NCBI GenBank assembly: GCA_030680405.1 | Contig: JAUXVT010000010.1 | Span: forward strand, 1-64,000 | Direction: 5' to 3' | DNA: 64,000 nt | DNA from: Thiobacillus sp. | Lineage (GTDB): Bacteria; Pseudomonadota; Gammaproteobacteria; Burkholderiales; Thiobacillaceae | In this document: positions 19,536-50,686 of the stretch, piece after piece | Layout: every line of letters starts with the position of its first letter | Position numbering within the stretch: the stretch's first letter is position 1 | The notes under the pieces: generated by a model | What the model was told of the DNA's origin: nothing | Databases searched by the model: none | What the model saw: only the letters and a program-made list of their open reading frames with translations | Position numbers and translations under genes: made by a program

Positions 19536-19552
19536 TGTCGAAAAATTTTACA
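19536..19552 (+). promoter_or_regulatory. Candidate PrsR operator, copy 1
   Basis: TGTCGAAAAATTTTACA, a TGTCG-N7-TTACA motif with TGT/ACA ends. It lies 86 bp upstream of the sigma-54 -24 box at 19638. The same 17-bp pattern occurs upstream of the other two PEP-CTERM genes in the window. The spacing fits an enhancer site for a sigma-54 activator, and PrsR is encoded nearby. Confidence 0.65.
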
Positions 19553-19637
19553 CTTCTCAAATCGGCCGCATACCGTACCGTAACTCAAATAATTTAAAAT
19601 CATGGAAATCAAGTTGTTACATGATGCGCTTCGCTTC

Positions 19638-19652
19638 TGGCACGGGGCCTGC
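19638..19652 (+). promoter_or_regulatory. Sigma-54 promoter of the PEP-CTERM gene at 19731
   Basis: TGGCACGGGGCCTGC followed by TT matches the -24/-12 consensus with the exact GG-N10-GC spacing. It lies 79 bp before the start codon of the PEP-CTERM gene. Confidence 0.8.
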
Positions 19653-19730
19653 TTTAAGTTGCGCATCGGGTTCCCATTCAAGAAACCCGTCTTGGTCAAA
19701 ACCAGTTTCTTTAGTGGAAGGAAATCAATC

Positions 19731-20558
19731 ATGAAAATCGCAACTTTTAAACCTTTGTTCATCGCAACCGGATTGGCCATGGGGCTGGGGATGACCGCCA
19801 CTGCGTTTGCAGTAGCATTGCCACAGTTTCAAGTTGACCCCGACTCCAACGTGGGCACACTCAACAACTTCTATGCAACCTCTATCAATGGCGGCTCGTC
19901 TGAGCGCTTGGCAAAGGTTGGTGGAAACCAATTAGTTGCCACGTTCGGTTATTTGGCCTTTTCCGGCTTCTCTAACGACGGTCCGTTGGGATCGATTGGT
20001 AATGTGCCCGCGATTGATAGTGGTCTCGGGGTTACTTACGGGCTCTACCTCACTTTCGACTTGGTGGCAGATTGGAACGGCGACGGCGTTTTTGGCGGCT
20101 TGGGTAGCAACTACACCCTGTCAAGCCTGAATTTCAATGTATATCAGGATAGTGACTTTGCTGCTGTTGCGACTCGAACCACCTTCACCCCGGCCACCCT
20201 CGCTGCAGATGCATCGATCGCGCAAAATGGCGGAGACACCTTGTTTGGTTCCGGAAGTTTGCTGGCAGGCATTGCGGGCATCGACGCACTTGGCGGAGCA
20301 TTCCTGAACTCGACCACGACTTACGCGAATACCGCAGCCGGCAACGCTTTTTTCGTGGATCCTGTCCCGTTCTACACGCTGGCGTTCAACGCCTTCAACA
20401 ATACGTCCCAAGGTGTACAAATTGGAACTGACTTCATTGCAATTTCGGCTGCCGGTTTAGTCGATTTCAATCAAGTCCCTGAACCGGCCACTTTGGCCTT
20501 GCTCGGTATGGGTCTGGTGGGTATGGGCATTTCGCTGCGCAAGCGCAAAGCTGCCTAA
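19731..20558 (+). CDS. PEP-CTERM sorting domain protein 1
   Basis: The 275-residue secreted protein starts at the ATG at 19731 behind a GGAAGGAAA ribosome site; the frame is open further upstream across the promoter. A signal peptide (about 1-27, ending AFA-VAL) is followed by a Gly/Asn/Thr-rich beta domain with almost no cysteine. The C-terminal tag contains VPEPATLALLGMGLVGMG and ends in RKRKAA, the exosortase recognition signal. Such proteins are cleaved by exosortase and associate with exopolysaccharide or the floc/biofilm matrix. It is driven by its own sigma-54 promoter and ends at a strong terminator. The body domain is not assigned. Confidence 0.92.
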   Translation: MKIATFKPLFIATGLAMGLGMTATAFAVALPQFQVDPDSNVGTLNNFYATSINGGSSERLAKVGGNQLVATFGYLAFSGFSNDGPLGSIGNVPAIDSGLGVTYGLYLTFDLVADWNGDGVFGGLGSNYTLSSLNFNVYQDSDFAAVATRTTFTPATLAADASIAQNGGDTLFGSGSLLAGIAGIDALGGAFLNSTTTYANTAAGNAFFVDPVPFYTLAFNAFNNTSQGVQIGTDFIAISAAGLVDFNQVPEPATLALLGMGLVGMGISLRKRKAA

Positions 20559-20597
20559 CAAGATAGTTGGGTTCCGTCCCAAATATCCCGCCTCAAT

Positions 20598-20629
20598 AAA
20601 AACCCCCGCCCTAAAAGGCGGGGGTTTTT
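20598..20629 (+). terminator. Intrinsic terminator after PEP-CTERM gene 1
   Basis: AAAAACCCCCGCC, loop CTAAAA, GGCGGGGGTTTTT. It is nearly symmetrical, so it could also stop the prsT transcript coming from the other strand. Confidence 0.9.
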
Positions 20630-20636
20630 ATTTGTC

Positions 20637-20666
20637 TACACTGCACACTTGTACACTGCACACTTG
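20637..20666. repeat. Two-copy 15-bp direct repeat
   Basis: TACACTGCACACTTG occurs twice in immediate succession, just beyond the terminator, in the convergent space between PEP-CTERM gene 1 and the first TPR gene. It is probably a simple slippage duplication. Confidence 0.8.
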
Positions 20667-20832
20667 GATTGTTGCTTGCCAATGTTCTACAGATACTGAA
20701 ACAGGGTGGGGCTTGGGTATCGGTCTCCAAAGGCGCCTTTCCTGCTGATCATTAAGGCGGCTGATCTGCCGCCGCGTCAACAAGGCGCAACGATGGAAGC
20801 CTGTTCTGCTTGACCTGTGGGTTCAGGCCGGC

Positions 20833-23613
20833 TCAGAGGGTTTTGAGCAGGTTTCTGGCGGCTTCCTGTTCGGTGAAATTCGGGGTATCCCTGAGCAGTT
20901 GTTCCAGTTCCTTCCGGGCTTGGACTTTGTTTTCGGTGCGGGCCATGGCAACGGCATGATGGTATCGAATAACGGCCACTTTGGGCGCCTTGGCTAAAGC
21001 CTTGCGCAACAGTTCTAGGCCACGCGGGGTTTGCCCCTGTTCCACCAGTATCCATCCGAGCGTGTCCTGCACGGCAGGGCTGTCCGGCGCGAGTTTCAGC
21101 GCTTGCTCAGCCGTTGCCAGCGCGCGCTTGTCGTTTTCAGTTTGATACAGGGTGGCCAGGTTGTTAAGGACTGACGGGTTTTTAGGAAGCTGACGCAGGA
21201 CTAGCTGGAATTGGGTGATGGCGTCCTTATTCCGGCCATTTCGCATGTGGTGCTCGGCGAGGTAAGTGCGCACGGCGTCGTCGTTGGGGTGTTGCATGAG
21301 CCAGTCGCTCAGACGCTGTTCGGCCGCGCTGGTATTGCCGGACCGAATGTGGGCTTGATGAAGCTTGATGATTCCGGCTGATCCGGCCCCTTTTTTCAGT
21401 GCAAGTTCATAGGCCTTGACTGCTTGCGGCAGGTGTTTCTGGGCTAGCTGGATGTCGGCTTCACGCTCGTAGCCTAATGGGGATTCAGGTTGTTGAGTCT
21501 GAATTTTGCGGGCAAGCTGCAGGGCGGCTTCAGGCTTATTCTCGGCCATTTCCAGGCGGAGCAGGGCATCCTGGCTTTGCAGGTGGCTGGGCTTGAGTTG
21601 CAGGGCTTTCTGCAAGCTGGCGCGGGCACCCTTCAAATTGTTATCCGCGATCTGCGCCAGGGCAAGACGAAGGTAGGCATCCGCCGATTGTGGCGCCTTT
21701 TTTGTCAGATTGGTGAAGGTGGTGATGGCGCCAGACTTCTCGTTGATGGAGAGTTGGAGGGTGCCCAACAGGTCAAGCGCAGCGGGGTTGTCCGGATTGG
21801 CGTTAACCGCTTCAGTGGCCACAGCCAGGGCTTTCCGGGGTTCATTCATGGCCATGTAATGACTGACAAGCGCAGCACTCGGGAGGATGGCTTCCGGGTG
21901 TGACTTGACAGCTTTATCCAGCCAACTGATGTAATCCTTTTCCTGCTTGTTGAGGCCGGCAAGTTCGGCCAGAGCCATCATCGCTTGCAGGTTGTTCTTG
22001 TCCTTGTTCAGAACACGTTCAAAGCGTTTGCGGGCGGCTTCGGGTTGCTTATCGCGTAGGTCGAGTTGCGCGAGGCTGGCTGCCGCCGGAAAGAACGCCG
22101 GATCGATAGCCAGGGCCTTCTCAAAGTTCTTGCGGGCACTGGCCAAGTCATTTTTCCCCAAATAAGCCTTGCCACGCAGGTTGTGCGTTACCGGGCTATT
22201 GGGTAGTTTTTTTTCCATGGCATCAATTGCGACGAGTGCCTTGTCGTATTCCTTGCGTTCCAGGTGGCTTAACACCAGTAGGTTGTCTGCCTTATATTGG
22301 CCGGGGTCCAGTGCCGCGGCAGCTTCCAGATCGGTGATGGCGCGAAGAGTGTCTCCTGCGGCAAGATGGCTGAGTCCTAACTGGGTTTGAACCGCGGCAT
22401 TCTTGGGGTCGATTAGCGCAGCTTTTTCCAACAACTCTGCCGCCTTTGTCGACTCGCGTTTGATGCGATACGCTTCGCTGGCAAGAACAAGCGCCAACGC
22501 ATCCTTTGCGTCAGGGGATAAGAGTGGTGCAAGCGTTTCTAAAGCCTTGTCGGGCCGATCCTGCTTGATTTGCGTTGCGGCCAATATTCTGCGTGCGTGG
22601 CCATTGCCAGGGTACTGCGCTAGAAATCGGCCGAGAAGACTTTCTGCCTGTTGATAGGAGCCCAAGGCGTAAGCCGTCTCACCGAAAAGCAGGACACTCG
22701 GCATATGGTCAGGGGTGATCTTGAAAACCTCTTGCAGGCCATCGCGCGCCTCGGGGTATTTTTTCTGGTGGAAATTGAGCAGGGCCTGGAGATAATGGGT
22801 GCCAATTGAATTTGGAGAAAGCGTGCGCGTCTTCTCAATATCATTGCGCGCGGACTCCCATTGACCAAGGGCCATATTGAGGGTGGCATGGCTTTGCAGC
22901 GCTTCCAGATTATTCGGCTCGGATTTCAGAGCGTTCGTATAGGCAGCCATGGCACCTTGTGAATTATTATTTAGTTGTTCCAGGCTTCCGATAAATATCC
23001 AGGTCTTGGCCTGCTTGTCTTTTATCTTGAGTGCGGCATCAAGCCATTCTCTGGCTTTCACCATGTTGCGTTCTGCTACAGCGCATTGTGCCAAACCCCA
23101 GTAAGTCGGCGGATTGTTTGTGTCGGTATCGAGGGATTTCTGGAAATGGCTGCAAGCCTCTTCCCGTTTGCCTAGCTTGAGCATGGCATCGGCCCGCAGT
23201 TGCAAAATACGTGCGAGATTGGACTTGGAGGTTTGCTCGCTCGGTTGAATTTCATCGAGTACCCGCTGGTACTCGCCCATGAGAAACAAGGCTTCGCCGA
23301 GTGGGGGCTTGATGGATTCACGGTTAACCCCCAGCTTTTCAGCTCGGCCAAGCTCCTTTTCAGCTTCGGCCCCCATGCCGGTTTTTAAGTAGACTTGCCC
23401 GAGTAGCAGTCTGGCTTGCGGGCTGTCAGGGTTTTTCTGGATCGCGTTTTTTAACTCGACAATGCTGCCCTTGAGGTTGCCTTTGTCCTCAAAGTCCTTG
23501 GCGCGCTGGATGTGTTCCTGTTCCGTGAGACTTGATATGCGGTCACAACCCGAAAGCGCGGCGGATGTGGCAAAGGCCAGGGCGATGGCCAGGGCGACGG
23601 GATGTTTGGTCAT
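20833..23613 (-). CDS. prsT: PEP-CTERM system TPR-repeat lipoprotein PrsT, copy 1
   Basis: The 926-residue lipoprotein has the lipobox ALSGC with lipidation at C23. The rest consists of TPR repeats of about 34 residues, many with the family signature of LLG, A-x-A and DP-x-N-P turns, up to the C-terminus. PrsT proteins belong to the exosortase/PEP-CTERM gene neighbourhood and probably organise polysaccharide or protein export at the envelope. It is followed by a second paralogue of the same size and then prsR-prsK. Codon usage looks less GC-rich than in the second copy, hinting at a different history. Confidence 0.88.
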   Translation of the reverse strand: MTKHPVALAIALAFATSAALSGCDRISSLTEQEHIQRAKDFEDKGNLKGSIVELKNAIQKNPDSPQARLLLGQVYLKTGMGAEAEKELGRAEKLGVNRESIKPPLGEALFLMGEYQRVLDEIQPSEQTSKSNLARILQLRADAMLKLGKREEACSHFQKSLDTDTNNPPTYWGLAQCAVAERNMVKAREWLDAALKIKDKQAKTWIFIGSLEQLNNNSQGAMAAYTNALKSEPNNLEALQSHATLNMALGQWESARNDIEKTRTLSPNSIGTHYLQALLNFHQKKYPEARDGLQEVFKITPDHMPSVLLFGETAYALGSYQQAESLLGRFLAQYPGNGHARRILAATQIKQDRPDKALETLAPLLSPDAKDALALVLASEAYRIKRESTKAAELLEKAALIDPKNAAVQTQLGLSHLAAGDTLRAITDLEAAAALDPGQYKADNLLVLSHLERKEYDKALVAIDAMEKKLPNSPVTHNLRGKAYLGKNDLASARKNFEKALAIDPAFFPAAASLAQLDLRDKQPEAARKRFERVLNKDKNNLQAMMALAELAGLNKQEKDYISWLDKAVKSHPEAILPSAALVSHYMAMNEPRKALAVATEAVNANPDNPAALDLLGTLQLSINEKSGAITTFTNLTKKAPQSADAYLRLALAQIADNNLKGARASLQKALQLKPSHLQSQDALLRLEMAENKPEAALQLARKIQTQQPESPLGYEREADIQLAQKHLPQAVKAYELALKKGAGSAGIIKLHQAHIRSGNTSAAEQRLSDWLMQHPNDDAVRTYLAEHHMRNGRNKDAITQFQLVLRQLPKNPSVLNNLATLYQTENDKRALATAEQALKLAPDSPAVQDTLGWILVEQGQTPRGLELLRKALAKAPKVAVIRYHHAVAMARTENKVQARKELEQLLRDTPNFTEQEAARNLLKTL

Positions 23614-23664
23614 TTATGTGTACTCCACTAATTGATGCGGTGATTTAATGAGCCTTGAACAGTT

Positions 23665-23753
23665 CGTCGTTGCGAGGTGAGCAGCTTTGTGGCAATCCAG
23701 GCAAGCCTATTTAATCTAACCGTTGGATTGCCACGCTTGCGCTCGCAATGACG
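23665..23753. repeat. Palindromic MITE/REP-like element
   Basis: An 89-bp near-palindrome lies between the two prsT copies. The ends are CGTCGTTGCGAG and CTCGCAATGACG (one mismatch as inverted repeats). The inner arms are GTGGCAATCCA (23689-23699) and TGGATTGCCAC (23724-23734), a perfect 11-bp inverted pair. Sequences with CATTGCGAG ends and GGCAATCC arms are widespread dispersed repeats in bacteria. No coding capacity. Confidence 0.8.
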
Positions 23754-23798
23754 GCTTGTTCAGTGTTTCCATACAAAGGAAGTTTATTCGGCCACCGG

Positions 23799-26582
23799 CT
23801 AGCGCGTTTTACCTTGAAGCTGTTTGAGTAGGGCGCGCGCTTCACCCTCCTGGGGGAACGCTGCACCACTTGCCAGCAGTCGTTCGAGCTCGCGCTGCGC
23901 ACGGGTGGGGTCGCCGGATTGGGCGAAGGCCGACGCCAGGTGGAACTGGATTTCTGCTGCATCGGGGGCTTTGGTCAGGGCCTGCTGTAACAGTTTGATG
24001 CCGCGCCCAGTCTGTCCCTGCTGAACCAGTATCCAGCCCAGCGTATCCATCACGGCAGGACTGTCGGGTTTGAGCTTGAGCGCCTGCTCGGCAAAGGCGG
24101 GTGCGCGGCTGTCCCTGGACTCGGAGAGAGACCACGCAAGATTATTCAGAACCAGAAGGTTGTTTGGGTTGCTCTTGTTCAAGATCAAATAATGTTCGGC
24201 AGCGGCTTTGTGCTGGCCGCGTTTGATCAGGCTTTCGGCCAGTGCAGCACGGGTGCTGGCGTCTTGCGGGTGGCTGGCAAGCCAGCTGGCGAGGCGTTTC
24301 TCGCCTTCTTCGGCGCGCTGGGTGGCATTGAAGACCTGCAGCTGGCGGATGAGCAGCGCGCCGGAGGGTTCAAGCTTGTGCGCGCGCTCGAAGGCGGCGA
24401 GGGCGGCGGGGTAATCCTTGCGCGCGAACGCGGTGTCGCCTTCGAGGATAAAGCCAGCCGGGCTATTGGGTTTTTGCTGCTGCACCTGTTTGGCGAGTTT
24501 GTGGGCCTCATCAAACCGCATGCCCTGGATCTCGACGCCGCCCAGAATCAGCTGAGCGTTGAGGAAGTCGGGCTGGATGCGCAGGGCGTCCTGCAGGTTT
24601 TTGCGTGCACCGGGCAGGTCTTTGGCAACGATCTGCACGGTGGCGAGCTTGACCAGCGGCGCGGCCTGGCCGGGCTGGCGTTCGACCAGCTTGCGGTAGC
24701 TGCCCAGCGCGTTGGTGGTGTCTCCCAGCGCCAGCTGGGTGGTGCCGAGAAGGTCGATCGCAGCCGGGTTGTCGGGATTGGCGTTGGCTGCTTCGCGGGC
24801 GGCGGCGAGCGCCTGGTTCTTGTCGCCCTTGGCGAGCAGATAGCGCGCCAGCGCCACCCGCGGTTGCAGCGCCTGCGGGTGGGCGGCGGCGGCTTTTTCC
24901 AGCCAGCTGACGTAGGTTTTTTCGTCCTTGTTGCGCAGGCTCAGGTCGGCCAACGCGAGCAGGGCGTTGAGGTGCTTGGGGTCGGCCTTGAGGATGCCTT
25001 CAAAGCGCTGGCGCGCGGCAGCGGGCTGATTGTCCTTTAGGTCGAGTTGCGCCAGGTTGGCCGCAGCGGGGAAGAACGCGGGATCGAGCTTGAGCGCCTG
25101 GCTGAAGCTGTTGCGCGCGCGGGTGGCATCCTGTTTGCCGAGGTAGGCCGCGCCCCGGTAGTTCCAGGTGAGCGGATTGGCGGCCTGTTTCTTTTCCAGC
25201 GCGGCGATGCTGGCCAGCGCGGCGTCGAACTGTTTTTGTCTCAACTGGTTGAGAATGATGAAGGTGTCGGCGCGGCTGCTGCTCCCTTCCATATCGGCGG
25301 CGGCCTGGAGGTCGGCCATGGCACGGTTGTCGCCCTGGGCGAGCCGGGAAATGCCGAGCTCGGTGCGGATGGCGGCGCTGTCGGGGCTGCGCTGGACGGC
25401 CTGTTCGAAATACGTCGAGGCCTGGGCAAAGTCTTTTTTGGCCAGCGCAATTTCGCCGGCGACGACCAGCACGCCGGCGTCCTGGTTGGCTGATTTGAGC
25501 GCCGGGGCCAGGGTGCGCGCCGCATCGTCGGGACGTCCCAGGCGCAGTTGCGAGGCGGCCAGCAGGCGCAGCGCATACAGGTTGTTCGGCGCGACCTTGA
25601 CCACCTTGTTGAGATGCGCCTCGGCGGTCTGCAGGTTGCCGAGTGCGTATTCGATCGAGCCGCCCAGCAGCAGGGCGGGAACGAACTCGGGTGCGCTCTT
25701 CAGCACGGCCGCCAGGTGGTCGCGCGCGCGTTCGGTTTTCTTTTCGCGAAAGTCGATGAGTGCCTGGGTGTAACGCGCCTGCAGGCTGTTGGGCATGGCT
25801 TTCAAGGCGGCGTCAACTTCGCGGCGCGCGTCAGCCAGCTTGTTGTCGGCGATGGCAATGCCCGCCAGTGCCAATCGGGCATTGGTATGCCGGGGATCGA
25901 TCTTGAGGACTTCATGATAAACCGCGGCGGCTTCGGCCGATTTCCCGGTGGCGCGCAGCAGGTCGCCCTTCAGCAGCAGGCTGTCGCGGTGCCTGGGGTC
26001 GATGCGCAGGGCCTGGTCGAGCGCCTGCATGGCCTTGTCGGCATCGCCGTCGGCCAGGGCCAGCTGCGCCAGCGCCAGATGAATTTCGGCATTGTCGGGT
26101 GCGGCCTGCTGCGCTTGCAGCAGCGCTTTGCGCGCTTCCTCCTTGCGCCCCAGGCCGAGTGCGGCGGTGGCGCGCAGGGCCTGCAGGGTGGCGGCGTCAG
26201 GGTCGCTGTCGGCCGGCGCAGGCAGCTCGTCCAGCACGCGCTGGAATTCGCGCTGGCCCAGCAGGGCACGGGCGATCATCGGGTTGACGGCGCTCGTCGC
26301 ATAGCCCGCTTCGCGGGCACGCCGGAATTCCTTTTCGGCGCTGGCCAGGTCGCTTTGCTCGAGATAGAGCTTGCCCAGCTCGTAGCGTGCCTCGGGGTTT
26401 TTTTCGTCTTCCGCCACGGCGTTTTTGAGCTGGATCATCGCCGTCTTGTAGTCCCCTGCCGCGAGCTTCGTCCGGGCTTCGGTGACCAGGGTGGTGCTGT
26501 CTTCTGCGCCACAGGCGGTCAACAGACTGGTTCCTAGAATCAAGGCCAGCAGCAGCCAGGGCGCGGGGACGGGGGTGGGCAT
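23799..26582 (-). CDS. prsT: PEP-CTERM system TPR-repeat lipoprotein PrsT, copy 2
   Basis: The 927-residue protein is read from the ATG at 26582, with GGAG upstream; a TTG four codons earlier is the alternative. The lipobox SLLTAC places the lipid on C24. About two dozen TPR units follow in the same order as in the neighbouring copy (shared segments include LAGDTTNALGSYRKL-like and VMDTLGWILVQQGQTGRG-like repeats), so the two are paralogues from a tandem duplication that has since diverged strongly. It is nearest to prsR and probably the ancestral member of the prsK-prsR-prsT set. Confidence 0.9.
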   Translation of the reverse strand: MPTPVPAPWLLLALILGTSLLTACGAEDSTTLVTEARTKLAAGDYKTAMIQLKNAVAEDEKNPEARYELGKLYLEQSDLASAEKEFRRAREAGYATSAVNPMIARALLGQREFQRVLDELPAPADSDPDAATLQALRATAALGLGRKEEARKALLQAQQAAPDNAEIHLALAQLALADGDADKAMQALDQALRIDPRHRDSLLLKGDLLRATGKSAEAAAVYHEVLKIDPRHTNARLALAGIAIADNKLADARREVDAALKAMPNSLQARYTQALIDFREKKTERARDHLAAVLKSAPEFVPALLLGGSIEYALGNLQTAEAHLNKVVKVAPNNLYALRLLAASQLRLGRPDDAARTLAPALKSANQDAGVLVVAGEIALAKKDFAQASTYFEQAVQRSPDSAAIRTELGISRLAQGDNRAMADLQAAADMEGSSSRADTFIILNQLRQKQFDAALASIAALEKKQAANPLTWNYRGAAYLGKQDATRARNSFSQALKLDPAFFPAAANLAQLDLKDNQPAAARQRFEGILKADPKHLNALLALADLSLRNKDEKTYVSWLEKAAAAHPQALQPRVALARYLLAKGDKNQALAAAREAANANPDNPAAIDLLGTTQLALGDTTNALGSYRKLVERQPGQAAPLVKLATVQIVAKDLPGARKNLQDALRIQPDFLNAQLILGGVEIQGMRFDEAHKLAKQVQQQKPNSPAGFILEGDTAFARKDYPAALAAFERAHKLEPSGALLIRQLQVFNATQRAEEGEKRLASWLASHPQDASTRAALAESLIKRGQHKAAAEHYLILNKSNPNNLLVLNNLAWSLSESRDSRAPAFAEQALKLKPDSPAVMDTLGWILVQQGQTGRGIKLLQQALTKAPDAAEIQFHLASAFAQSGDPTRAQRELERLLASGAAFPQEGEARALLKQLQGKTR

Positions 26583-26633
26583 AGGAGACTCCAATATCGT
26601 TATGTAGATTGTAGGGGAATAGCGCAGGAGGAT

Positions 26634-27986
26634 TTATTTCATGCCGATTTTCGCCATCAGGTCATACAGGGTGGGGCGGGTGATGCCGAGCAGCTCGGCG
26701 GCCCCAGCGATGCTGCCGTCGCTGTGGGCGAGCGCACGGCTGACCGCCAGGCGCTCGGCATTTTCGCGCGCTTGGCGCAGGCTGAAGGGCTGCGGCGCGG
26801 CCAGGCCGGTATCGAGCCCGAGGTCGGCCGCGGTGATCTGGCTGCCGTCGGCCATGATGGTGGCGCGCTTGACCAGATTTTCCATTTCACGCACGTTGCC
26901 GGGCCAGGCGTGGGCTTCGAGTGCGCCCAGCGCATCAGCGGTGAAGCCGCGGAGGGTGCGCCCCAGTTCGCGCGCATAGCGTTCCAGGAAGACCTGCGCC
27001 AGCAGTACGGCGTCGCCGGGGCGTTCGCGCAGAGGCGGAATTTTCACGGTGATTTCGGATAGCCGGTAGTACAGGTCCTCGCGGAAGCTGCCTTCACGAA
27101 TCATGCTGGCGAGATCGCGATGGGTGGCGCAGACGACGCGCACATCGACCGGAATTTCGCCGCGTCCACCCAGGCGTTCAATCACGCGTTCCTGCAGGAA
27201 ACGCAGCAGCTTGGCCTGCAGCGGCATCGGCAGGTCGCCGATTTCATCGAGGAAGAGGGTGCCTTCGTTGGCATACTCGATCTTGCCGATGGTTTGCTTG
27301 GCGGCGCCGGTGAACGCGCCTTTTTCATAGCCGAACAGTTCCGATTCCAGCAGGGTGTCGGGGATCGCCGCGCAGTTGATGGCGACAAAGCGCTTGCCGG
27401 CGCGCGGCGACAGTTCGTGCACGGCGCGCGCCAGTACTTCCTTGCCGGTGCCGGATTCGCCCAGCAACAACACCGTGGCGTTGGCCGGGGCGACTTTTTC
27501 CACGATGTGGCACACCTTGAGCATCGGCTCGCTGCTGGTGATCAGTCCCTGCAGGGCTGAGCCGTGCTGCCTGGCGGCCAGCAGGCGGTTTTCGATTTCC
27601 AGCGCATGGACATGCAGCGCGCGGGCAATCATCAGCGCCAGCACGTCGGGGTCGAAGGGCTTCTGGAAAAAGTCGTAGGCGCCGAGGTGGATGGCTTTCA
27701 CGGCATTGCTGCGATCGAGGTTGCCGGTGACGACGATGACCTTGGTGGCAGGGGCGAGCGACAGGATTTGCTGCAGCGCGGCCAGGCCTTCGGTCGCGCC
27801 ATCCGCATCGGGCGGCAGGCCGAGGTCGAGCAGCACCACGGCGGGCTCGTGACGGCGCAATTGGGCAATGGCGCTGTCACGGTCGGCGGCCATCACCAGT
27901 TCGTAATCGCCCAGGCTCCACTTCAGCTGCTTTTGCAGCCCGGGATCGTCTTCCACCAGCAGAATTTTTTGCTTGGCGTCGCTCAT
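26634..27986 (-). CDS. prsR: Sigma-54-dependent response regulator PrsR
   Basis: The 450-residue protein has an N-terminal receiver domain with phosphoacceptor D54 (VVLLDLGLPPD). The AAA+ domain carries Walker A GESGTGKE (176-183), the sigma-54 contact loop GAFTGA (223-228) and Walker B LFLDEIGDLP. A Fis-type HTH lies at the C-terminus (GSIAGAAELLGITRPTLYDLM). It is the PEP-CTERM-associated NtrC-family activator. The GAFTGA loop is intact, so it should activate RpoN. Its start overlaps the prsK stop by 4 nt, so kinase and regulator are translationally coupled. Likely targets in this window are the three sigma-54 promoters at PEP-CTERM genes. Confidence 0.95.
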   Translation of the reverse strand: MSDAKQKILLVEDDPGLQKQLKWSLGDYELVMAADRDSAIAQLRRHEPAVVLLDLGLPPDADGATEGLAALQQILSLAPATKVIVVTGNLDRSNAVKAIHLGAYDFFQKPFDPDVLALMIARALHVHALEIENRLLAARQHGSALQGLITSSEPMLKVCHIVEKVAPANATVLLLGESGTGKEVLARAVHELSPRAGKRFVAINCAAIPDTLLESELFGYEKGAFTGAAKQTIGKIEYANEGTLFLDEIGDLPMPLQAKLLRFLQERVIERLGGRGEIPVDVRVVCATHRDLASMIREGSFREDLYYRLSEITVKIPPLRERPGDAVLLAQVFLERYARELGRTLRGFTADALGALEAHAWPGNVREMENLVKRATIMADGSQITAADLGLDTGLAAPQPFSLRQARENAERLAVSRALAHSDGSIAGAAELLGITRPTLYDLMAKIGMK

Positions 27987-30067
27987 GCGGCGTCTCCTCC
28001 AGGAGGTGAATTATTGTCCAGCGGCAGGCTGAGGCGGAACCGGGTGCCGTTCCCCGGTGTGCTGTCGACCTCGATCGTGCCGCCCAGGGCACGCAGGGTT
28101 TCGCGACATTCGTAGGCGCCGATGCCCATGCCTGCGCCCTTGGTGGAATCGAACGGCTGAAACAGCCGGGTGCGGATGAAGTCGTCGTCCATGCCGCTGC
28201 CGGTGTCGGTGATTTCAATCATCGCCTGCCCGGATTCCTCGAATCCGCGCAGCGTGACCTGGCCGCTCGGCGGGGTGGCCTCCAGCGCATTTTGCAGCAG
28301 ATGACCGATGGCGCGGGTGAGCCGTTCGCGCTCGGCGCGCACGCGCAGGTGGGCGGGCGGCAAGGCCAGGGTGGGACGCAGCTTGAATGCCTGCTTGCTG
28401 ACGGCCGCTTCGTTCAGGATATCCGCCAGCGCCACCGACTGCGCCTGCGCCTCATCGCTGCCGCGGCGCAACTGCGCCAGCACTTTGTTCATGCGGGCGA
28501 CTGCGTTTTCAATGGTGTCCAGCATGTCGGCCTGGAACGCGGGGTTGTGCTTGTGCTTTTCGGCATTGGCCAACAGCAGGGACAGCTGGGCAATGAGATT
28601 TTTCAGGTCGTGGATGACAAAGGTGGTGGTGCGGTTGAACGATTCGAACTGGCGCGCCACGATGAGCTGGTTGGAGGCGCGCATCTGCGCTAGATGCGCC
28701 GCGGCCTGGCGCGCCGCCACCTTGAGCAGGTCGCTGACTTCCCAGTTGAAGCTGACGTTGCCCAATGAATGTTTCAGCACCACAAAGCCGAGCAGTTCAT
28801 CGTGCAGCATCAACGGCACCACCAGCCAGGCGTCGTCGGCCTGCCGGATCCAGGCGGGGGCGTCCAGGTCACCGTAAAGATCGTGGCGGGTTTTCATTTC
28901 GTCCAGATCCACCACCCACTGCATACTGGCGAGCCACTGAATGAAGGGGGAGTCGGCCGGCTCGGTGCCGTTGAGGTCGGCCCAGTTCCAGTGGCTGGCG
29001 CGCTGGTAGCCGGTGTCGCCTTCGCGCATCCACAGCGCGCCGCCGGGGCTTTCGAGCAGCCGCGCCAGCGCTTCGACGGCGCGTTCGCACAGTTGTTCGC
29101 CAGGCTGGCCTTCGGTGAGGGCGCGGGTGAATTTGAGCCATTCTTCACGGTAGTCGTAGCGGTAGCTGAAAAAATGCTTGGACAGAAACACCCGCAGCCG
29201 CGCGCGCAGGGTGCCGGAGAACATCAGCAGCACCAGCAGCATGGCGGCGGCAAAGATGAACACGGTTTGCACCACGTCGCCCCATGCGCCGCCGAACAGG
29301 CGCAGGTAATAGCCGGCGCCCGCCATCAGCAGCAGATAGATCCCCGCCCCCAGCAGGCTGGCGGTGTGGAAGGCCATGCTGCGCGACAGCCCGACTGGCG
29401 CCGCCCATTCCGGGTTGCGTGCGGCGGAGACCGCGATCAACGGCGTCACCAGCGCCGCCACATAGCCGCGCGCCGCCCACACCTGGGCATCCATTGCGTT
29501 GAACAGCGCAGCATTGGCATACAGGTAAAAGTCGTACACGAACAGTCCGCCCAGCCCCAGGCAGAGAAACTTGATTGCCCAGCGGTCTTCTGGACGGGTG
29601 CTGCGGTACACCTGCTCGACCAGCACCAGCCCCATCACGGTGAGCAGCACCAGTCCAAGATTGCCTGCCCACTGGGCCAGTACCGGCTGGGTGGGGGCGA
29701 TGAGGGGCGTGATACTGGCGAGCAGCAGGCCACCGATGAGTGCGACGCTGAGGAGACGGATAAAGCGCAGCGGCGCCGGCAGTGTGGCACCCGGCGGCAG
29801 GCGCAGCCGCAGGATGTAGAGCAGCAGCGCCAGCCAGGCACCGTTGCGTGCAACTTCGGCAGCGAGCTGCAGCCGCGGCGGCAACACCCCCCAGGCGGTG
29901 AGCGCCGACACGGCGCCCCAGGCGGCGCTCAGCCCGGTGGCGAGCACCAGCAGACGTCCCTGTGGGCGCTGGCGCCAGCTGGAAACGATGAGGCCGGACA
30001 GCCCCAGGTAGGCCAGCGTCGCCAGGCCATAACCGACGGCGGCAAGGAGGAGCAGGGTGTCGGGCAT
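27983..30067 (-). CDS. prsK: PEP-CTERM system histidine kinase PrsK
   Basis: The 694-residue membrane kinase has an N-terminal region with about eight helices (residues 1-290), a GAF-like cytosolic domain (about 310-470), a dimerisation segment with the phosphoacceptor in VIHDLKNLIAQL, and an HATPase domain with DTGSGM, FQPFDSTKGAGMGIG and PGNGTRF. This is the PrsK architecture. It would phosphorylate PrsR D54 in response to an unknown membrane or envelope signal. It overlaps prsR by 4 nt and lies 22 bp downstream of the sugar transferase gene, suggesting a transferase-prsK-prsR transcript. Confidence 0.93.
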   Translation of the reverse strand: MPDTLLLLAAVGYGLATLAYLGLSGLIVSSWRQRPQGRLLVLATGLSAAWGAVSALTAWGVLPPRLQLAAEVARNGAWLALLLYILRLRLPPGATLPAPLRFIRLLSVALIGGLLLASITPLIAPTQPVLAQWAGNLGLVLLTVMGLVLVEQVYRSTRPEDRWAIKFLCLGLGGLFVYDFYLYANAALFNAMDAQVWAARGYVAALVTPLIAVSAARNPEWAAPVGLSRSMAFHTASLLGAGIYLLLMAGAGYYLRLFGGAWGDVVQTVFIFAAAMLLVLLMFSGTLRARLRVFLSKHFFSYRYDYREEWLKFTRALTEGQPGEQLCERAVEALARLLESPGGALWMREGDTGYQRASHWNWADLNGTEPADSPFIQWLASMQWVVDLDEMKTRHDLYGDLDAPAWIRQADDAWLVVPLMLHDELLGFVVLKHSLGNVSFNWEVSDLLKVAARQAAAHLAQMRASNQLIVARQFESFNRTTTFVIHDLKNLIAQLSLLLANAEKHKHNPAFQADMLDTIENAVARMNKVLAQLRRGSDEAQAQSVALADILNEAAVSKQAFKLRPTLALPPAHLRVRAERERLTRAIGHLLQNALEATPPSGQVTLRGFEESGQAMIEITDTGSGMDDDFIRTRLFQPFDSTKGAGMGIGAYECRETLRALGGTIEVDSTPGNGTRFRLSLPLDNNSPPGGDAA

Positions 30068-41756: not shown

Positions 41757-44700
41757 ACAACGCGGGCGCACCCGGCAATTCCCACGGCCTGTTGCGGCTG
41801 GCCGCGCTGGCTTATACCGCATTTGTCATCTACGGCAGTCTGGTGCCGCTGGATTTCCAGGCCAAGCCTTTGTATTTCGCGTGGGCGATCTTTCTTCAAC
41901 TGCCTTGGGCTGCGCATGGTTCGTCGCTGACCGACTGGATCACCAATGTAGTTCTCTATCTGCCGTTGGCCATCCTGTGGCGGAGCGCGTTGCTCACGCG
42001 GCGTCCAGCGGGTGATTGGCGGTCGGCAGGACTTGTCGGGCTGGGCTGCCTGGCACTTAGTGCAGGCCTGGAGTTCACGCAGATATTCACGGCCAGTCGC
42101 ACCCCGTTGTTCAACGACATCCTGATGAACGGCCTGGGGGCGGGCATGGGCATACTGCTTTGGCCCGTGGTGGCGCCACGCCTCGCTGCCCTGGCTGATG
42201 CGGTGTCGGGATACACCGAACGGATCTGTCCGAATGTCCCGAGCGCGAGGATGCCGGCCGGGTTCGCCCTGCTTCCTTACCTGGGGGGGTTGGGATGGGC
42301 GTACGGATGGTTTACCTCCCCCTGGCTACCTCCACAGTCGGCATTCGATCGCTTGGCAGGGCTGCATCTGGCGCCGTTCTATCAGCATTATTTCGCCGAT
42401 ATCGGCTTTGCCCTGCACAGCGTGGGCACGGTCTTGGCGGCTTATGCGCCACTGGGTCTGGGAGTCTGGGCATTGCGCCGCCGTGCGTGTTCCGGGCGTG
42501 CGTTGTTGCGGATGACCGTCGTCTGGAGCCTCCTGGCCGCCGGGCTGTTCGAGAGCAGCAAGCTCTTCCTTGCAGACCGGCAGCCTGATTACACGAACCT
42601 CCTGTTCGCCGTGATGGGGGGCTTGCTGGGCTGCATCCTGGCCTGCAGGAACGCCCCGTCCGCCAAAGCGGTGGCAAGCCGTGAGGTCACGAAGCCATCG
42701 GTCAGGCCGAGCCGGGGCGGGATGGGTTGGCGGATACTTGCGGCGGTGGCTTTTGGCGCGGCGCTGTACGGGTTATGGAGTCAGCCATTCGCACGGATTC
42801 CGCTGGTGGTCGGGGCGTTGCTGTACGTGCTGCTGCTCCTGCGCTACCCCCATGCCTGGCTGATTTTGATTCCCGGCTTGTTGCCGGTGCTCGATCTGGC
42901 GCCATGGTCCGGCCGTTTCTTTTTCGACGAATTTGACCTCGCGCTGCTGTTCACCCTGGCTGTCGGTTACAGGCATCTCTCGATCCAAGCCGGGAAAACG
43001 CGGCTTCCCGCTGGCCTGTTGTTCGTGCTGGGTCTGTTCGCGATTTCCTGTCTCATCAGCCTGGCCTTGGCGCTCTTTCCCCTCGCTCCCCTGGATCTCA
43101 ATTCCTTCGCCCACTATTACAGCCCGTACAACGCCTTGCGCGTGGCCAAGGGTTTTTTCTGGGCGCTCGCCCTGTTGCCTCTCCTGGCCAGGCAACATCA
43201 AGCGGGCGTTCCGGTGGGGCGGCTGTTCGCACTGGGCATGGCGATCGGGCTGGCGGGCACGGTGCTCGCTATCGTCTGGGAGCGGGCCGTTCTTTCTGGC
43301 CTGACCGATTTCACTCGCGATTTCCGGGTGGCGGGTCTGATGTCCAGCATGCATACCGGGGGATCCTCCATCGAGGCCTTCCTGGTTCTTGCCATGCCAT
43401 TCCTCGCGGCCGTCGTGGATCGGCAGCGCAGCTGGACCACAACGCTAGCCGTGATGGGGCTGCTGCTTGGCGGTTTTTATGCCCTGGCCGTAACCTACGC
43501 CCGCGGGGGCTATGTCGCAATGGGACTGGTTTTCCTGGTGCTGGTCATCGGCTGGATGTTGCGCGGCAAGCGGGTTGCCAGGACGCGAACCCTGCCCTAT
43601 GTTCTGGTTGCATGCCTCCTTGTCATATTGATGGTCGCGCCCATTCTGGGTGGGCAGTTCGCGCAATCCCGCCTGGCGCAAAGCGGGCGCGACGCAGGGG
43701 TGCGCATGGCGCATTGGCAGAATGCCCTCGCGATCAAGGATGAAGGCTGGCGGAGCGAACTGTTCGGCATGGGTCTGGGCCGGTATCCCGTCACGTATTT
43801 TTACCGCAGCCAGGAAAAGGCTCGCTCGGCCTCTTTTAGTTATTTCCAACGCGGGGGGCAACAGGGTCTTTCCTTGGGTGCGGGCACGCCTGTCTATGTG
43901 GAACAGAAAGTTCAGGTCCGGCACGACGTGGCGTATCAGCTTCAGGTCATGGCACGCAGCGCATCAGGCGGTGCGGGGCTTAATGTTCTGTTGTGCGAGC
44001 GAACCTTTTTCGACTCCTTCGGCTGCACCTCGGCGACGTTCAAACTGACCGGCACCTGGGCTGGCTACCAGGATCGACTCACCCTGAGTTGGCCCGGTGG
44101 GTGGGGGCGCCCCGTCACCTTGTCCCTGGAGAATTTTGCGCCCGGCAGTGTGGCGGAAATTCGCAGCATCTCCTTGCGCAACCCCGCAGGGCGCGATGTC
44201 ATCAGCAATGGCGACTTTTCCCAGGGCGCGGATAGATGGTTTTTCAGTACCTTCGATCATTTGGGGTGGCACATCAAAAACCTCTGGGTTGCCTTGCTGT
44301 TTGAACAGGGTTGGATGGGCCTGCTTGCGTTCACCTTGCTGAGCGGATATGCCCTGACCCAGATTGCCCAGCATTTCCTGCGCTCGGGTAATCTGGTCAG
44401 CCTGTCGGTACTGGCTGGATTGGTCGGTTTTCTGACTGTGAGCGTGGTTGATTCGCTGTTCGATGCACCCCGTCTGACCCTATTGTTTTTCTTGACACTG
44501 TTAGTGGGGTGCGTGCATGGGGAATCCCGTGCTGCCCCGGCCGACAAGCGGGTGCGCCGTCATTCGCCGGGGCTGGGCGAACCCCCGGCGGCAACCCGGA
44601 TCCGGTCTCACCGGGAAGCCGTGCCGCCCTATACAAGCAAGCTGCCCATTTTCTGGCGGGATGCGGCCATCGGCGTAGGTTTGCTGGCCATGCTTGGACT

Positions 44701-45583
44701 GGCCGCCACGTCTGCGCCCGGCATGCCTTACAACGTGAGAGAGTTGGTCTACCAGGGTAGCCCGATACTGTCCGCTCTCCTGCTGTCCCTGTTCTGGTTC
44801 TGGTTGGCGGGCGTGCCGGTGATCTTTGCCAAGGGGCTGGCGGGAAATCGCCTGTTCCGTTCGCTTTACCTGCCCGCCACGTTGTCGCATGCGGCAGCGG
44901 CCGCCGTGCTCATCCTCATGGCTGTCCCGAGCGAGAGCATCCATGATCTGGTGGGCTCGCCTATTCTGGGATGGCCTGGGCAAATCGAGAGCATGGCACG
45001 TCTGACCGCGCTGTTTGCCGCGCTATCCCTTCTGTTGACGGGGGGGGCATGGATGGCAAGGGCAGCGCTGACGGGACGCCGGGATGCCGGTTTATGGGCT
45101 TGGGGTGCCAGCGCACTGATTTTGCTGATGCTGGCGCATTGGGTCGTGGTGGAGCGCGCGGCAACGGACAACCTGACTGAACTCATGGCGGGCGGCGGCG
45201 GCAGCCAGGCCAGTGTCGCCTTGACAGCCTGCATCCTGCTGCTGGGTACGTGCGGCAGCTTGCTCAGCTTGTACGCGATGGGCGCCGGGCTGTCTCGCCT
45301 AGCCACCCTGATCTGGGTCATGCTGACGCTGACGTTGAGTTATGGTCTGCTCGTCCTAGGCATGGAGACGAATGTCCTGAAATACGGACAGAACTTTTCC
45401 GCCTTGCAGTTTTTGCTGAGCGCCGATCGAATACACCTCGTATCAGGGGTGGAACTGGCGATGCGTTACGGCCTGGCGTGTTGCGCGGGCTTACTGGCGC
45501 TTGCGTTCGCGCAATGGCCGTTTTTCAGACTGGTCTCAACCGCGACTACGCCTGTAACAGAGCGAGCCTCTACTGCGCCATGA
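41753..45583 (+). CDS. VanZ / O-antigen ligase-like multidomain membrane protein
   Basis: The 1276-residue protein has a GTG start overlapping the beta-helix gene. It has two VanZ-like units (about 1-140, with LSAGLEFTQIFTASRTPLFNDILMN split over the key turn; and about 165-305, with GLFESSKLFLADRQPDYTNLL). An O-antigen ligase/polymerase-like membrane domain follows (about 320-640, with AVTYARGGYVAMG). Next is a non-membrane beta-rich insert (about 690-820, resembling a carbohydrate-binding module), two more helices, and a final block of about eight helices (965-1262). It probably polymerises, ligates or exports a surface polysaccharide, together with the beta-helix protein. The combination in one chain is unusual. 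Confidence 0.7.
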   Translation: MNNAGAPGNSHGLLRLAALAYTAFVIYGSLVPLDFQAKPLYFAWAIFLQLPWAAHGSSLTDWITNVVLYLPLAILWRSALLTRRPAGDWRSAGLVGLGCLALSAGLEFTQIFTASRTPLFNDILMNGLGAGMGILLWPVVAPRLAALADAVSGYTERICPNVPSARMPAGFALLPYLGGLGWAYGWFTSPWLPPQSAFDRLAGLHLAPFYQHYFADIGFALHSVGTVLAAYAPLGLGVWALRRRACSGRALLRMTVVWSLLAAGLFESSKLFLADRQPDYTNLLFAVMGGLLGCILACRNAPSAKAVASREVTKPSVRPSRGGMGWRILAAVAFGAALYGLWSQPFARIPLVVGALLYVLLLLRYPHAWLILIPGLLPVLDLAPWSGRFFFDEFDLALLFTLAVGYRHLSIQAGKTRLPAGLLFVLGLFAISCLISLALALFPLAPLDLNSFAHYYSPYNALRVAKGFFWALALLPLLARQHQAGVPVGRLFALGMAIGLAGTVLAIVWERAVLSGLTDFTRDFRVAGLMSSMHTGGSSIEAFLVLAMPFLAAVVDRQRSWTTTLAVMGLLLGGFYALAVTYARGGYVAMGLVFLVLVIGWMLRGKRVARTRTLPYVLVACLLVILMVAPILGGQFAQSRLAQSGRDAGVRMAHWQNALAIKDEGWRSELFGMGLGRYPVTYFYRSQEKARSASFSYFQRGGQQGLSLGAGTPVYVEQKVQVRHDVAYQLQVMARSASGGAGLNVLLCERTFFDSFGCTSATFKLTGTWAGYQDRLTLSWPGGWGRPVTLSLENFAPGSVAEIRSISLRNPAGRDVISNGDFSQGADRWFFSTFDHLGWHIKNLWVALLFEQGWMGLLAFTLLSGYALTQIAQHFLRSGNLVSLSVLAGLVGFLTVSVVDSLFDAPRLTLLFFLTLLVGCVHGESRAAPADKRVRRHSPGLGEPPAATRIRSHREAVPPYTSKLPIFWRDAAIGVGLLAMLGLAATSAPGMPYNVRELVYQGSPILSALLLSLFWFWLAGVPVIFAKGLAGNRLFRSLYLPATLSHAAAAAVLILMAVPSESIHDLVGSPILGWPGQIESMARLTALFAALSLLLTGGAWMARAALTGRRDAGLWAWGASALILLMLAHWVVVERAATDNLTELMAGGGGSQASVALTACILLLGTCGSLLSLYAMGAGLSRLATLIWVMLTLTLSYGLLVLGMETNVLKYGQNFSALQFLLSADRIHLVSGVELAMRYGLACCAGLLALAFAQWPFFRLVSTATTPVTERASTAP

Positions 45584-48258: not shown

Positions 48259-48282
48259 TTCGGTTGGCTTTATTTGCTAAAA

Positions 48283-48311: not shown

Positions 48312-48329
48312 TTGGTCGTGTAGCCTTAA

Positions 48330-49364
48330 TTAGGCTGTCTTGCGGCGGCGCATGGCTCCCAAACCAGCGAGGCCCAAACCCATTAGCGCCAGGGAGGCGG
48401 GCTCGGGCGCTGGATTCACAATATCTTCGTCGTTGACGTTCGAGATGGTGAACGCACTGGTGAAACCGAGGAAGAACACGTTGTCATCGAAGCTCGGGTT
48501 GCTGGTATTGAAGGTAATCGACGTGTCGCCCGCTTTCAGGAAGGGGGTCGCGTCCGCAATGTTGCCGAGAGCGAGGTTGTAGAGTTCGTCGTCGACAAAC
48601 GGACCACTGCTACCGGAACAGTTCGGATCAGGATTGGAAGTGCTGTCGCCGATGCCGCCGACGGTTATCAGCGAGCCGTTCGCCGCCGCACCATCATCCT
48701 CGCCACCGGCACAGCCAGTGAGGCGGCGCGAGGCCGTCGAGCTCGTCACCACGTCGACCGTTGTCACCTGACCTGTGGGCTGGTGGCTGAAGCTCGACGC
48801 CAGCGACATGATGACGTTGCCGCCCACATAGGGCGAGGCGAAGGCGAGGTTGGTGGTGTCGCCGGCCAGCGCCAGTTCGCCGTCCAGGATGATCGCGGTA
48901 CCGCCAGTGGTGCTTGCATGCTTGTAGACCACCACCAGCACTTCGCCGTCATTGTTGCCGGATTCGGAAATGACGAAGTTCTGCAGCCCGTTGGTGCCTT
49001 CGATCAGCGGCTTCATGAAGGAGGTGACGTCCCACACCATAGTGTTGGCGGGGTTAGTGTTCGGGGTCAGCAAAGAGCCGGTGGCGGTGGTGAGCAGATT
49101 GCCGGCCAAGGTCACGTTCGCCAACCCGCCGCCGAATACATCCGCTGCGTACAGATAGGCCTTGAGCACCTCCGCGCCAGCGGGGGTGTCGACCGAAAGG
49201 TTACCGCTGCTGCCGCCGAAACCGTCAATGGACAGTGCGGCATCCTGATAGGCGCTGCGGAGCAGCAGCGTGGCCGACGCAGGTAACGCCATCGTCACCA
49301 GCGCGCCCGTCGTCAGGGCAAGGCCAACGGCCTTGGCGATCATCTGTTTCTTGAATGTTTTCAT
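48330..49364 (-). CDS. PEP-CTERM sorting domain protein 2
   Basis: The 344-residue protein is read from the ATG at 49364 behind a strong AGGAGG ribosome site; the frame is open 28 codons earlier. A signal peptide (about 1-33, ending ASA) is followed by a large beta-rich domain with Gly/Asn/Ser/Thr-rich loops and few cysteines. The C-terminal exosortase tag has PEPASLALMGLGLAGLG and ends RRRKTA. It is a likely secreted matrix or surface protein. The domain is not confidently assigned. Transcription is probably from the sigma-54 promoter at 49445-49459. Its tag is nearly identical to that of PEP-CTERM protein 3 next door. Confidence 0.9.
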   Translation of the reverse strand: MKTFKKQMIAKAVGLALTTGALVTMALPASATLLLRSAYQDAALSIDGFGGSSGNLSVDTPAGAEVLKAYLYAADVFGGGLANVTLAGNLLTTATGSLLTPNTNPANTMVWDVTSFMKPLIEGTNGLQNFVISESGNNDGEVLVVVYKHASTTGGTAIILDGELALAGDTTNLAFASPYVGGNVIMSLASSFSHQPTGQVTTVDVVTSSTASRRLTGCAGGEDDGAAANGSLITVGGIGDSTSNPDPNCSGSSGPFVDDELYNLALGNIADATPFLKAGDTSITFNTSNPSFDDNVFFLGFTSAFTISNVNDEDIVNPAPEPASLALMGLGLAGLGAMRRRKTA

Positions 49365-49444
49365 TTTGTTTGACCTCCTTTGATTGGGTATTTGTGAAGT
49401 TGGAGTGATAAGAAACGACCGCCTCCATGGCTGATCAGAATTGA

Positions 49445-49459
49445 GCATGGATCATGCCA
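49445..49459 (-). promoter_or_regulatory. Sigma-54 promoter of PEP-CTERM gene 2
   Basis: On the minus strand TGGCATGATCCATGC has the GG-N10-GC spacing of a -24/-12 promoter, 80 bp before the start codon. Confidence 0.75.
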
Positions 49460-49522
49460 GTAAGATTTACTAAAATAATATCAATGACTTACTGCGTGCC
49501 CCCTTTTTTTCAACCGGGAAAA

Positions 49523-49539
49523 TGTAAAATATTCCGACA
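49523..49539 (-). promoter_or_regulatory. Candidate PrsR operator, copy 2
   Basis: On the minus strand TGTCGGAATATTTTACA, matching TGTCG-N7-TTACA, 64 bp upstream of the -24 box of PEP-CTERM gene 2. Confidence 0.65.
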
Positions 49540-49605
49540 TGTGGACTGGCTTGCCAGGATCGGATGCGACCAGCTGTCTTGGCCTGTGAACTGACCCTGA
49601 GGTAT

Positions 49606-49637
49606 AAAAAATGGCGACCAAACGGCCGCCATTTTTT
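49606..49637 (-). terminator. Intrinsic terminator after PEP-CTERM gene 3
   Basis: On the minus strand AAAAAATGGCGGCC pairs with GGTCGCCATTTTTT across a short loop, with a T-run at the 3' side. It ends the transcript of the gene at 49658-50473. Confidence 0.85.
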
Positions 49638-49657
49638 AGCTACAAAACTTCTCTTGA

Positions 49658-50473
49658 TCAGGCTGTCTTGCGGCGGCGCATGGCACCCAGACCGGCGAGG
49701 CCGATGCCCAACAGGGCCAGCGATGCGGGTTCGGGAACCCCATTGTCATCGATAGGCTGACCGCCAATCAGGATGCCGTCGATCGCCATGCCAGTATCTA
49801 ATGCCGTGTCTCCCCAGTTGGTGACGCCGAACTCGAGGTAGTAGTTGCCGTCGACAAGGATGGTATAGAGGGATTGGACCCAGCCGGTGTTGCCACAACC
49901 CGCCCCCAAACCTCCGTAACACGCACCAGAAGAGCCCCCCAGAGGTGACCAGTTCGTCGCGCCGGCCGTGACGTTCACGACCGCTGGGGTGATGGTCGCG
50001 GCGATAGGCGGCAGTCCAAAACCGGGCACCGTAGTGCCATTAGGGTTTGTGCGCGCGGTGAACAGCAAGGCCGCTTGGCTCGAATCTTCATTCAGCAGGC
50101 GCGCCCAAGCGTATTCAATAAAGGACGTAGTGCCGTCGGAGGTAACGTAATTGAAGTAAAACTCCAAGTCGTCCCCGTTAGTGGCCGAGAACAGATTAGA
50201 GACCAGTAACGAGCCGTTGGTCTCACCACCCAAGCCCAAGCCAGTATTGGAAGGCGCACCAGAGGTGGAGATATAGGCGTAATTACCGCCCTCGGGCGAA
50301 CTGGTGATATCGCCGTTGGCACCCAGGGTGCCGCAGTTGCCGGTGCAGACCCAACCGGCCGGAATGCCTGAATCAAAAGCCGTTGCCGATGCTGCGCCGG
50401 AGATTGAGAAAAGAGAAGCTGAAAACAACGCTGTCAAACCAAGATGTATGGCCGAATGCTTGCTGATAGGCAT
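49658..50473 (-). CDS. PEP-CTERM sorting domain protein 3
   Basis: The 271-residue secreted protein has a signal peptide ending near ASA-TAF (about residue 31). A beta-sandwich-like body has two cysteine pairs (WVCTGNCG; ACYGGLGAGCG). The C-terminal tag carries VPEPASLALLGIGLAGLG and ends RRRKTA. It is a target for exosortase and probably a matrix or surface protein. It has its own sigma-54 promoter and terminator. The last 24 or so residues are almost identical to PEP-CTERM protein 2, while the bodies are unrelated in appearance. Confidence 0.9.
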   Translation of the reverse strand: MPISKHSAIHLGLTALFSASLFSISGAASATAFDSGIPAGWVCTGNCGTLGANGDITSSPEGGNYAYISTSGAPSNTGLGLGGETNGSLLVSNLFSATNGDDLEFYFNYVTSDGTTSFIEYAWARLLNEDSSQAALLFTARTNPNGTTVPGFGLPPIAATITPAVVNVTAGATNWSPLGGSSGACYGGLGAGCGNTGWVQSLYTILVDGNYYLEFGVTNWGDTALDTGMAIDGILIGGQPIDDNGVPEPASLALLGIGLAGLGAMRRRKTA

Positions 50474-50568
50474 GATGAACCCCTTAAAATTCTTTTATTA
50501 ACAAGGGCTAATGAGCCGAGCGCGTTGTCCGGACCTGTTGACCCCCCCACTTACGTAATAATAAGTAA

Positions 50569-50583
50569 GCATTAGCCATGCCA
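50569..50583 (-). promoter_or_regulatory. Sigma-54 promoter of PEP-CTERM gene 3
   Basis: On the minus strand TGGCATGGCTAATGC followed by TT fits the -24/-12 consensus with GG-N10-GC spacing, 95 bp before the start codon at 50473. Confidence 0.78.
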
Positions 50584-50669
50584 GCGTTGTTTGTAATAAC
50601 AAAATACTACTTATATCAATGTGTTAACAATTTCAATGGAGCGGCCGGGTTAAGGCTCTGAAGTTCAAA

Positions 50670-50686
50670 TGTAAATATTTTCGACA
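50670..50686 (-). promoter_or_regulatory. Candidate PrsR operator, copy 3
   Basis: On the minus strand TGTCGAAAATATTTACA, matching TGTCG-N7-TTACA, 87 bp upstream of the -24 box of PEP-CTERM gene 3 and immediately beside the stop codon of the symporter gene. Confidence 0.65.

Follow-up and report, generated by a model that had tools for sequence, protein, structure and literature searches.

Helically phased sigma-54 promoters of PEP-CTERM genes in a Thiobacillus genome, with a predicted PrsR site, a putative IHF site and candidate further targets

The locus

The first 64,000 nucleotides (nt) of contig JAUXVT010000010.1 of Thiobacillus sp. (assembly GCA_030680405.1), the whole stretch analysed here and henceforth the window, carry three PEP-CTERM genes, each preceded by a sigma-54 -24/-12 box and, further upstream, by a 17-bp motif that is a predicted site of the response regulator PrsR. 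An earlier note on this DNA had proposed that these elements define a PrsR/sigma-54 regulon. This regulon is already published: the motif (motif 1), the box and PrsR as the predicted binder are all in Haft et al., 2006 (PMC1569441), so that the note had in effect rediscovered it. What the present analysis would add is helical phasing of the two elements, a predicted site for integration host factor (IHF) between them and a wider set of candidate targets.

The first gene is of the pepA type, for a flocculation-associated PEP-CTERM protein (19731-20558, plus strand; NF033554, above cut-off). Its motif 1, TGTCGAAAAATTTTACA (19536-19552, plus), is followed by a strict match to the IHF consensus, AATCAAGTTGTTA (19607-19619, plus, 18 nt before TGGCA), then by the sigma-54 box TGGCACGGGGCCTGCTT (19638-19654, plus). 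The second gene (344 amino acids; 48330-49364, minus) has motif 1 as TGTCGGAATATTTTACA (49523-49539, minus), a strict IHF match on the plus strand, hence reverse relative to the gene (49479-49491, 19 nt before TGGCA), and the box TGGCATGATCCATGCTC (49443-49459, minus). Ahead of the third, a member of the NF038132 family (49658-50473, minus), lie TGTCGAAAATATTTACA (50670-50686, minus), a strict IHF match again on the plus strand and reverse relative to the gene (50614-50626, 30 nt, or 19 + 11, before TGGCA) and the box TGGCATGGCTAATGCTT (50567-50583, minus). In a profile search all three genes score above the TIGR02595 cut-off that defines PEP-CTERM proteins. A pattern scan bore out every coordinate and gene-wise orientation that had been given for the six motifs and boxes, with TGGCA-N7-TGC starting at 19638 (plus), 49459 (minus) and 50583 (minus). 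The distance of 64-87 bp given earlier had been counted to GG; from the end of the motif to the T of TGGCA, the spacers measure 85, 63 and 86 bases in the first, second and third gene. Motif 1 itself is an imperfect inverted repeat, TGT-N11-ACA.

Between these genes lies the regulatory locus. The gene of the sigma-54 response regulator PrsR (26634-27986, minus; TIGR02915, 769 bits) is adjoined by that of the histidine kinase PrsK (27983-30067, minus; TIGR02916, 937 bits), and PrsR carries the GAFTGA loop of sigma-54 activators, as the earlier note had stated. An XrtA/PEP-CTERM system glycosyltransferase gene (30090-31484, minus; TIGR03013) and prsT, present twice in tandem at 20833-26594 (23799-26594 and 20833-23613, both minus and above the TIGR02917 cut-off), complete the set, all of it above NCBIfam cut-offs. 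The earlier note had failed to find the motif at prsT, prsR or the sugar transferase; a window scan allowing up to one mismatch agrees. The genome also codes for rpoN, for ihfA and ihfB (above cut-offs) and for exosortase A, and it thus holds PrsK, PrsR and PrsT together with an EpsH-family exosortase. As a separate observation, the window has at 41753-45583 an open frame of 1276 amino acids, the start of which is VanZ-like and which Pfam otherwise leaves unmatched.

The motif in the window and in the genome

TGTCG-N7-TTACA has three exact matches in the window, and they are those of the three PEP-CTERM promoters. With one mismatch there are six, against a mean of 1.6 and a largest value of 5 in shuffled sequence. 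The sigma-54 box by itself is not enriched (five matches at one mismatch against a shuffled mean of 3.1), so that significance rests on the pairing of motif and box. Two motif-like sequences inside genes, at 17733-17749 (plus) and 19207-19223 (minus), with one mismatch each (L175 and L176), were considered and set aside; they are without a strong in-phase sigma-54 box and are therefore taken as chance.

A genome scan had been proposed as the way to refute the motif, should it occur at chance frequency. In the 2.67 Mb of the genome (80 contigs, 87% complete) there are 11 exact matches and only 2 to the backwards pattern, which is above chance. The tighter TGTCG-N6-TTTACA has 8 exact matches, and each is followed by GG-N10-GC, with spacers of 52, 62, 62, 63, 63, 77, 85 and 86 (at one promoter, C29/L006, the box at 62 ties in score with another at 90). 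Two of the three remaining looser matches lack GG-N10-GC at 30-100 bases, and at the third, L007, the box lies at 45 bases, which is out of phase.

For comparison with other genomes two sets were used: a class survey of 369 genomes, searched for the composite of motif and box with a spacer of 30-90, and 119 loci among the matches listed in a genome collection, where the range searched was 50-80. A second copy of motif 1, matching at least 9 of its 11 fixed bases within 120 bp upstream, occurs at 13 of the 119 listed loci against 4 in a downstream control, and in the window at the second PEP-CTERM gene alone (9/11); a tandem site is therefore not a general feature.

Helical spacing and a putative bend site

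The distance from motif to promoter is quantised in helical steps of about 11 bp. The 100 matches of the class survey have spacers of 51-54 (10), 61-65 (47), 73-77 (27) or 81-86 (16), and none among them falls at 30-50, 55-60, 66-72, 78-80 or 87-90. The classes are thus near 52, 63, 74 and 85 bp, with a best period of about 11.1 and a vector length of 0.80. The same classes appear in the listed loci, at 50-55 (24), 60-65 (71) and 72-76 (24). The spacers of the window, 63, 85 and 86, fit them, as do those of all eight exact-motif promoters of the genome. The standard deviation of 10.6 given by Haft et al. (PMC1569441) amounts to about one helical turn.

All three spacers of the window hold the strict IHF consensus WATCAANNNNTTR, which has only 4 matches in the whole window and 48 in the genome. 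Among the listed loci it is found in 21 spacers, against 3/119 upstream, 1/116 downstream and 2 for the reversed pattern; shuffled spacers gave a mean of 0.8 and a maximum of 4. Allowing one mismatch, 63 of the 119 spacers have a site against 8/119 upstream and 8/116 downstream, and with up to two mismatches the figures are 107, 43 and 44. Position is constrained as well: the matches cluster 18-20 nt ahead of TGGCA in one orientation (40 matches) and at 6 nt in the opposite one (13). The window agrees, with 19 and 30 (19 + 11) for its second and third genes and, in the opposite orientation, 18 (6 + 12) for pepA. These regularities suggest a predicted IHF bend site between motif and promoter.

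The TAAGTCATTGATA-type element of the spacer could instead be the site of a second activator or an A/T-rich feature of the promoter, an explanation that we consider unlikely while granting it a real chance. It would account for the 56 of 119 listed spacers that lack the element at one mismatch, and for an excess that is weaker in A/T-rich loci of the class. Against it, the real consensus, with its 21 matches, was equalled by none of 300 permuted ones (mean 0.9, maximum 11), and ihfA and ihfB are present in the genome. An asymmetric IHF consensus can keep one bend centre in either orientation, and the two orientations, set about 12-13 bp apart, fit such a geometry.

Association with PrsR

In the class survey the composite element occurs at the 100 places mentioned above, in 55 of the 369 genomes, while the backwards pattern has no match; PrsR is above cut-off in 106 genomes. 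Both are found in 50 genomes, the element only in 5, PrsR only in 56 and neither in 258 (odds ratio 46, Fisher p 3e-26, kinship uncorrected). The suggestion of the earlier note that the 17-bp motif is the operator of PrsR is supported by this co-occurrence in 50 of 55 element-bearing genomes, by the presence of PrsR and PrsK in the window and by the GAFTGA loop. The motif is accordingly best described as a predicted PrsR site, to which the protein would bind in this organism.

The motif might be the site of another enhancer-binding protein of the NtrC family, PrsR being a mere companion gene. The 5 element-bearing genomes without PrsR above cut-off would fit, and in Desulfovibrio vulgaris DVU0804 and DVU0110 have, in the published text, a few targets in common with DVUA0057 (PMC3333781). 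Some of these five genomes are incomplete (G215, for example, is 77% complete), and the prsR gene of the window lies between the very PEP-CTERM genes concerned. Further, DVUA0057, a predicted PEP-CTERM regulator, enriched five predicted PEP-CTERM targets in DNA affinity purification followed by microarray (DAP-chip; Rajeev et al., 2011, PMC3333781). With the strong co-occurrence added, this explanation appears quite improbable.

That the three motifs are together by coincidence, or are common to recently duplicated promoters, as the adjacency of two of the three genes (48330-50473) might suggest, has a negligible probability and was rejected on the shuffles, on the 11 matches in the genome against 2 backwards, on spacers that are unlike in length and, outside the elements, in sequence, and on the recurrence of the arrangement in 55/369 genomes.

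Targets other than PEP-CTERM genes

Five of the eight exact-motif promoters of the genome stand ahead of PEP-CTERM genes and three ahead of others. At L009 (G000:C39:90997-91013) a gene for a GGDEF protein (Pfam, E 5e-32) is preceded by motif 1 and, at a spacer of 52, by a sigma-54-like box in phase with it (starting GGGCA); a first identification as algC, made from the neighbouring gene, was dropped on this result. At L005 (G000:C22:52077-52093) the element, with a spacer of 77, precedes the gene of a 229-amino-acid protein whose start is twin-arginine-like and for which Pfam gave no match. The third, L011 (G000:C50:95388-95404), lies ahead of a small hydrophobic open reading frame beside an argJ-like gene, argJ being named by eye. 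Similar small proteins stand behind the element, again beside an argJ-like gene, at two further Thiobacillus loci, L018 and L072, that of L072 being without a Pfam match.

Over the 119 listed loci, a PEP-CTERM tail was found in a downstream open reading frame of the same strand in 74, by means of a hidden Markov model of our own built from 63 of them; for 18 of the 45 that lack a tail, the locus extends less than about 810 bp downstream. Two gammaproteobacterial loci, L036 and L080, have the element ahead of similar genes for ATPases of ATP-binding cassette (ABC) transporters, the former checked by Pfam.

In 12 of the 45 tail-less loci (L041, L046, L054, L055, L056, L070, L076, L087, L088, L100, L102 and L113), all from sphingomonads except L100, which is known only as Pseudomonadota, a hairpin with a GGTCTCC-like loop lies 25-100 nt past the promoter. 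The flanks of L100 and L088 hold glutaredoxin and a NUDIX protein gene on the opposite strand, one locus having been tested for each. A covariance model built without the promoter was run against 118 genomes of the order (E <=1e-4) and found 15 places in 13 of them, two of these genomes being seeds. Twelve of the 13 non-seed places (L211-L222) are preceded by a motif 1 that matches at 9-11 of its 11 fixed bases and, after a spacer of 64-65, by TGGCA-N7-TG[C/T]; the other, L223, has no upstream element. Among weaker matches, L201 and L202 have the element, L210 is without it, and L207 lies next to L054 as a second match there. PrsR is present in all 13 hairpin genomes, against 69 of the 118 of the order (p 0.0007).

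In 25 sequences, two-sided changes occur in 11 of the 12 pairs, with a covariation of 0.500 against 0.187 when shuffled and at most 0.114 when slid, the structure having been drawn from the same sequences. In 12 loci, a search for ATG or GTG open reading frames that have 12-60 codons and a Shine-Dalgarno-like sequence found none; terminator-like sites were present in 4 of 12. Rfam, at gathering scores, returned for 12 loci (L092 in, L087 out) four tRNAs only and no match for the hairpin, and for one locus at E <=5 four weak matches to unrelated families. A literature search, outside which most subscription journals and supplements remained, found nothing on such a hairpin or small RNA. Covariation would be expected of an inverted DNA repeat as well, so that the transcript is something we infer; a covarying hairpin behind the element and without an open reading frame is nevertheless a candidate small RNA of the Sphingomonadales. 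As its loop is complementary to Shine-Dalgarno sequences, translation control is suggested, and is a guess.

Mechanism and significance

The promoters of the window very probably belong to a PrsK-PrsR/sigma-54 regulon such as Haft et al. described. On receiving a signal, PrsK would phosphorylate PrsR, which would bind the inverted repeat upstream. Bending of the intervening DNA by IHF may then allow the AAA+ assembly of PrsR to reach the sigma-54 polymerase at the -24/-12 box, where hydrolysis of ATP would open the promoter for expression of the PEP-CTERM genes, the products of which would subsequently be processed by the exosortase XrtA.

Several observations weigh against this reading. Of the nine TIGR02595 matches in the genome, only six show the element clearly (that at C54 with one motif mismatch); a seventh, C27, is doubtful (93 bases), and the genome scan found no element at C22:30388 and C19. 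The 56 PrsR genomes without the exact element, the 5 element-bearing ones without PrsR above cut-off and the lack of independence among loci from related species count in the same sense. As for IHF, to the 56 listed spacers lacking a site at one mismatch must be added that, in the eight exact-motif promoters of the genome, the strict consensus is found at four, all of PEP-CTERM genes, and is absent at the three non-PEP-CTERM targets and at C29. In 29 further loci of the class, a set that overlaps the 119 by at least one promoter, the excess is weaker: 4 against 1 for strict matches, 13 against 5 with up to one mismatch and 25 against 17 with up to two.

Going further, we tentatively propose a strict stereo-specific module, in which PrsR site, IHF bend and sigma-54 box are set at distances of whole helical turns, about 11 bp each, with targets beyond PEP-CTERM genes: a GGDEF gene here and, in Sphingomonadales, a dedicated small RNA, driven by sigma-54, whose GGUCUCC loop is conserved. 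This may be so, and we place it somewhat short of an even chance. If true, the GGDEF protein could raise cyclic di-GMP, the small RNA could block ribosome-binding sites, and PrsK-PrsR would coordinate a single matrix programme that takes in surface proteins, a second messenger and the control of translation. The regulon is textbook-level in the PEP-CTERM field, though there is little direct proof of PrsR binding, and phasing and the IHF detail make it directly testable; the additional targets would widen a switch for surface proteins to a programme for the biofilm matrix.

Comparison with known systems

In sigma-54 promoters assisted by IHF, as a general class, activator site, IHF site and -24/-12 box stand likewise in order; here that arrangement is assigned, from sequence alone, to the PEP-CTERM regulon. 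The response regulator DVUA0057 of D. vulgaris is likewise predicted for PEP-CTERM genes, in another organism and, in the published text, without a validated binding motif there (PMC3333781). Closer to the present case, pepA of Aquincola tertiaricarbonis is RpoN1-dependent, with a TGGCAC...CTGCTT box at the mapped start site and a predicted enhancer upstream (PMC9850573); the first gene of the window fits the PepA family model, while a role of PrsR is not demonstrated in Aquincola and IHF has no occurrence in the text of that work.

The closest system is the PEP-CTERM/EpsH region of Haft et al. (PMC1569441), with the same 17-nt motif 1 ending in TTTACA, a spacer, a 17-nt motif 2 of the sigma-54 -24/-12 type, PEP-CTERM genes, PrsK, PrsR and PrsT, the two motifs being present at 99 of 167 proteobacterial PEP-CTERM genes. 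The window shows just these traits, with motif 1 ending in TTTACA, a box after a spacer within 32-92 nt and a PEP-CTERM gene downstream. The main text of Haft et al. has no occurrence of "IHF", "integration host factor", "periodic" or "phas", and phasing, IHF site and wider targets did not appear in the literature searched, most subscription journals and supplements being outside the search. Spacing is given there as a mean of 62.8 nt with its standard deviation, whereas here it resolves into steps of about 11 bp, with an IHF consensus inside.

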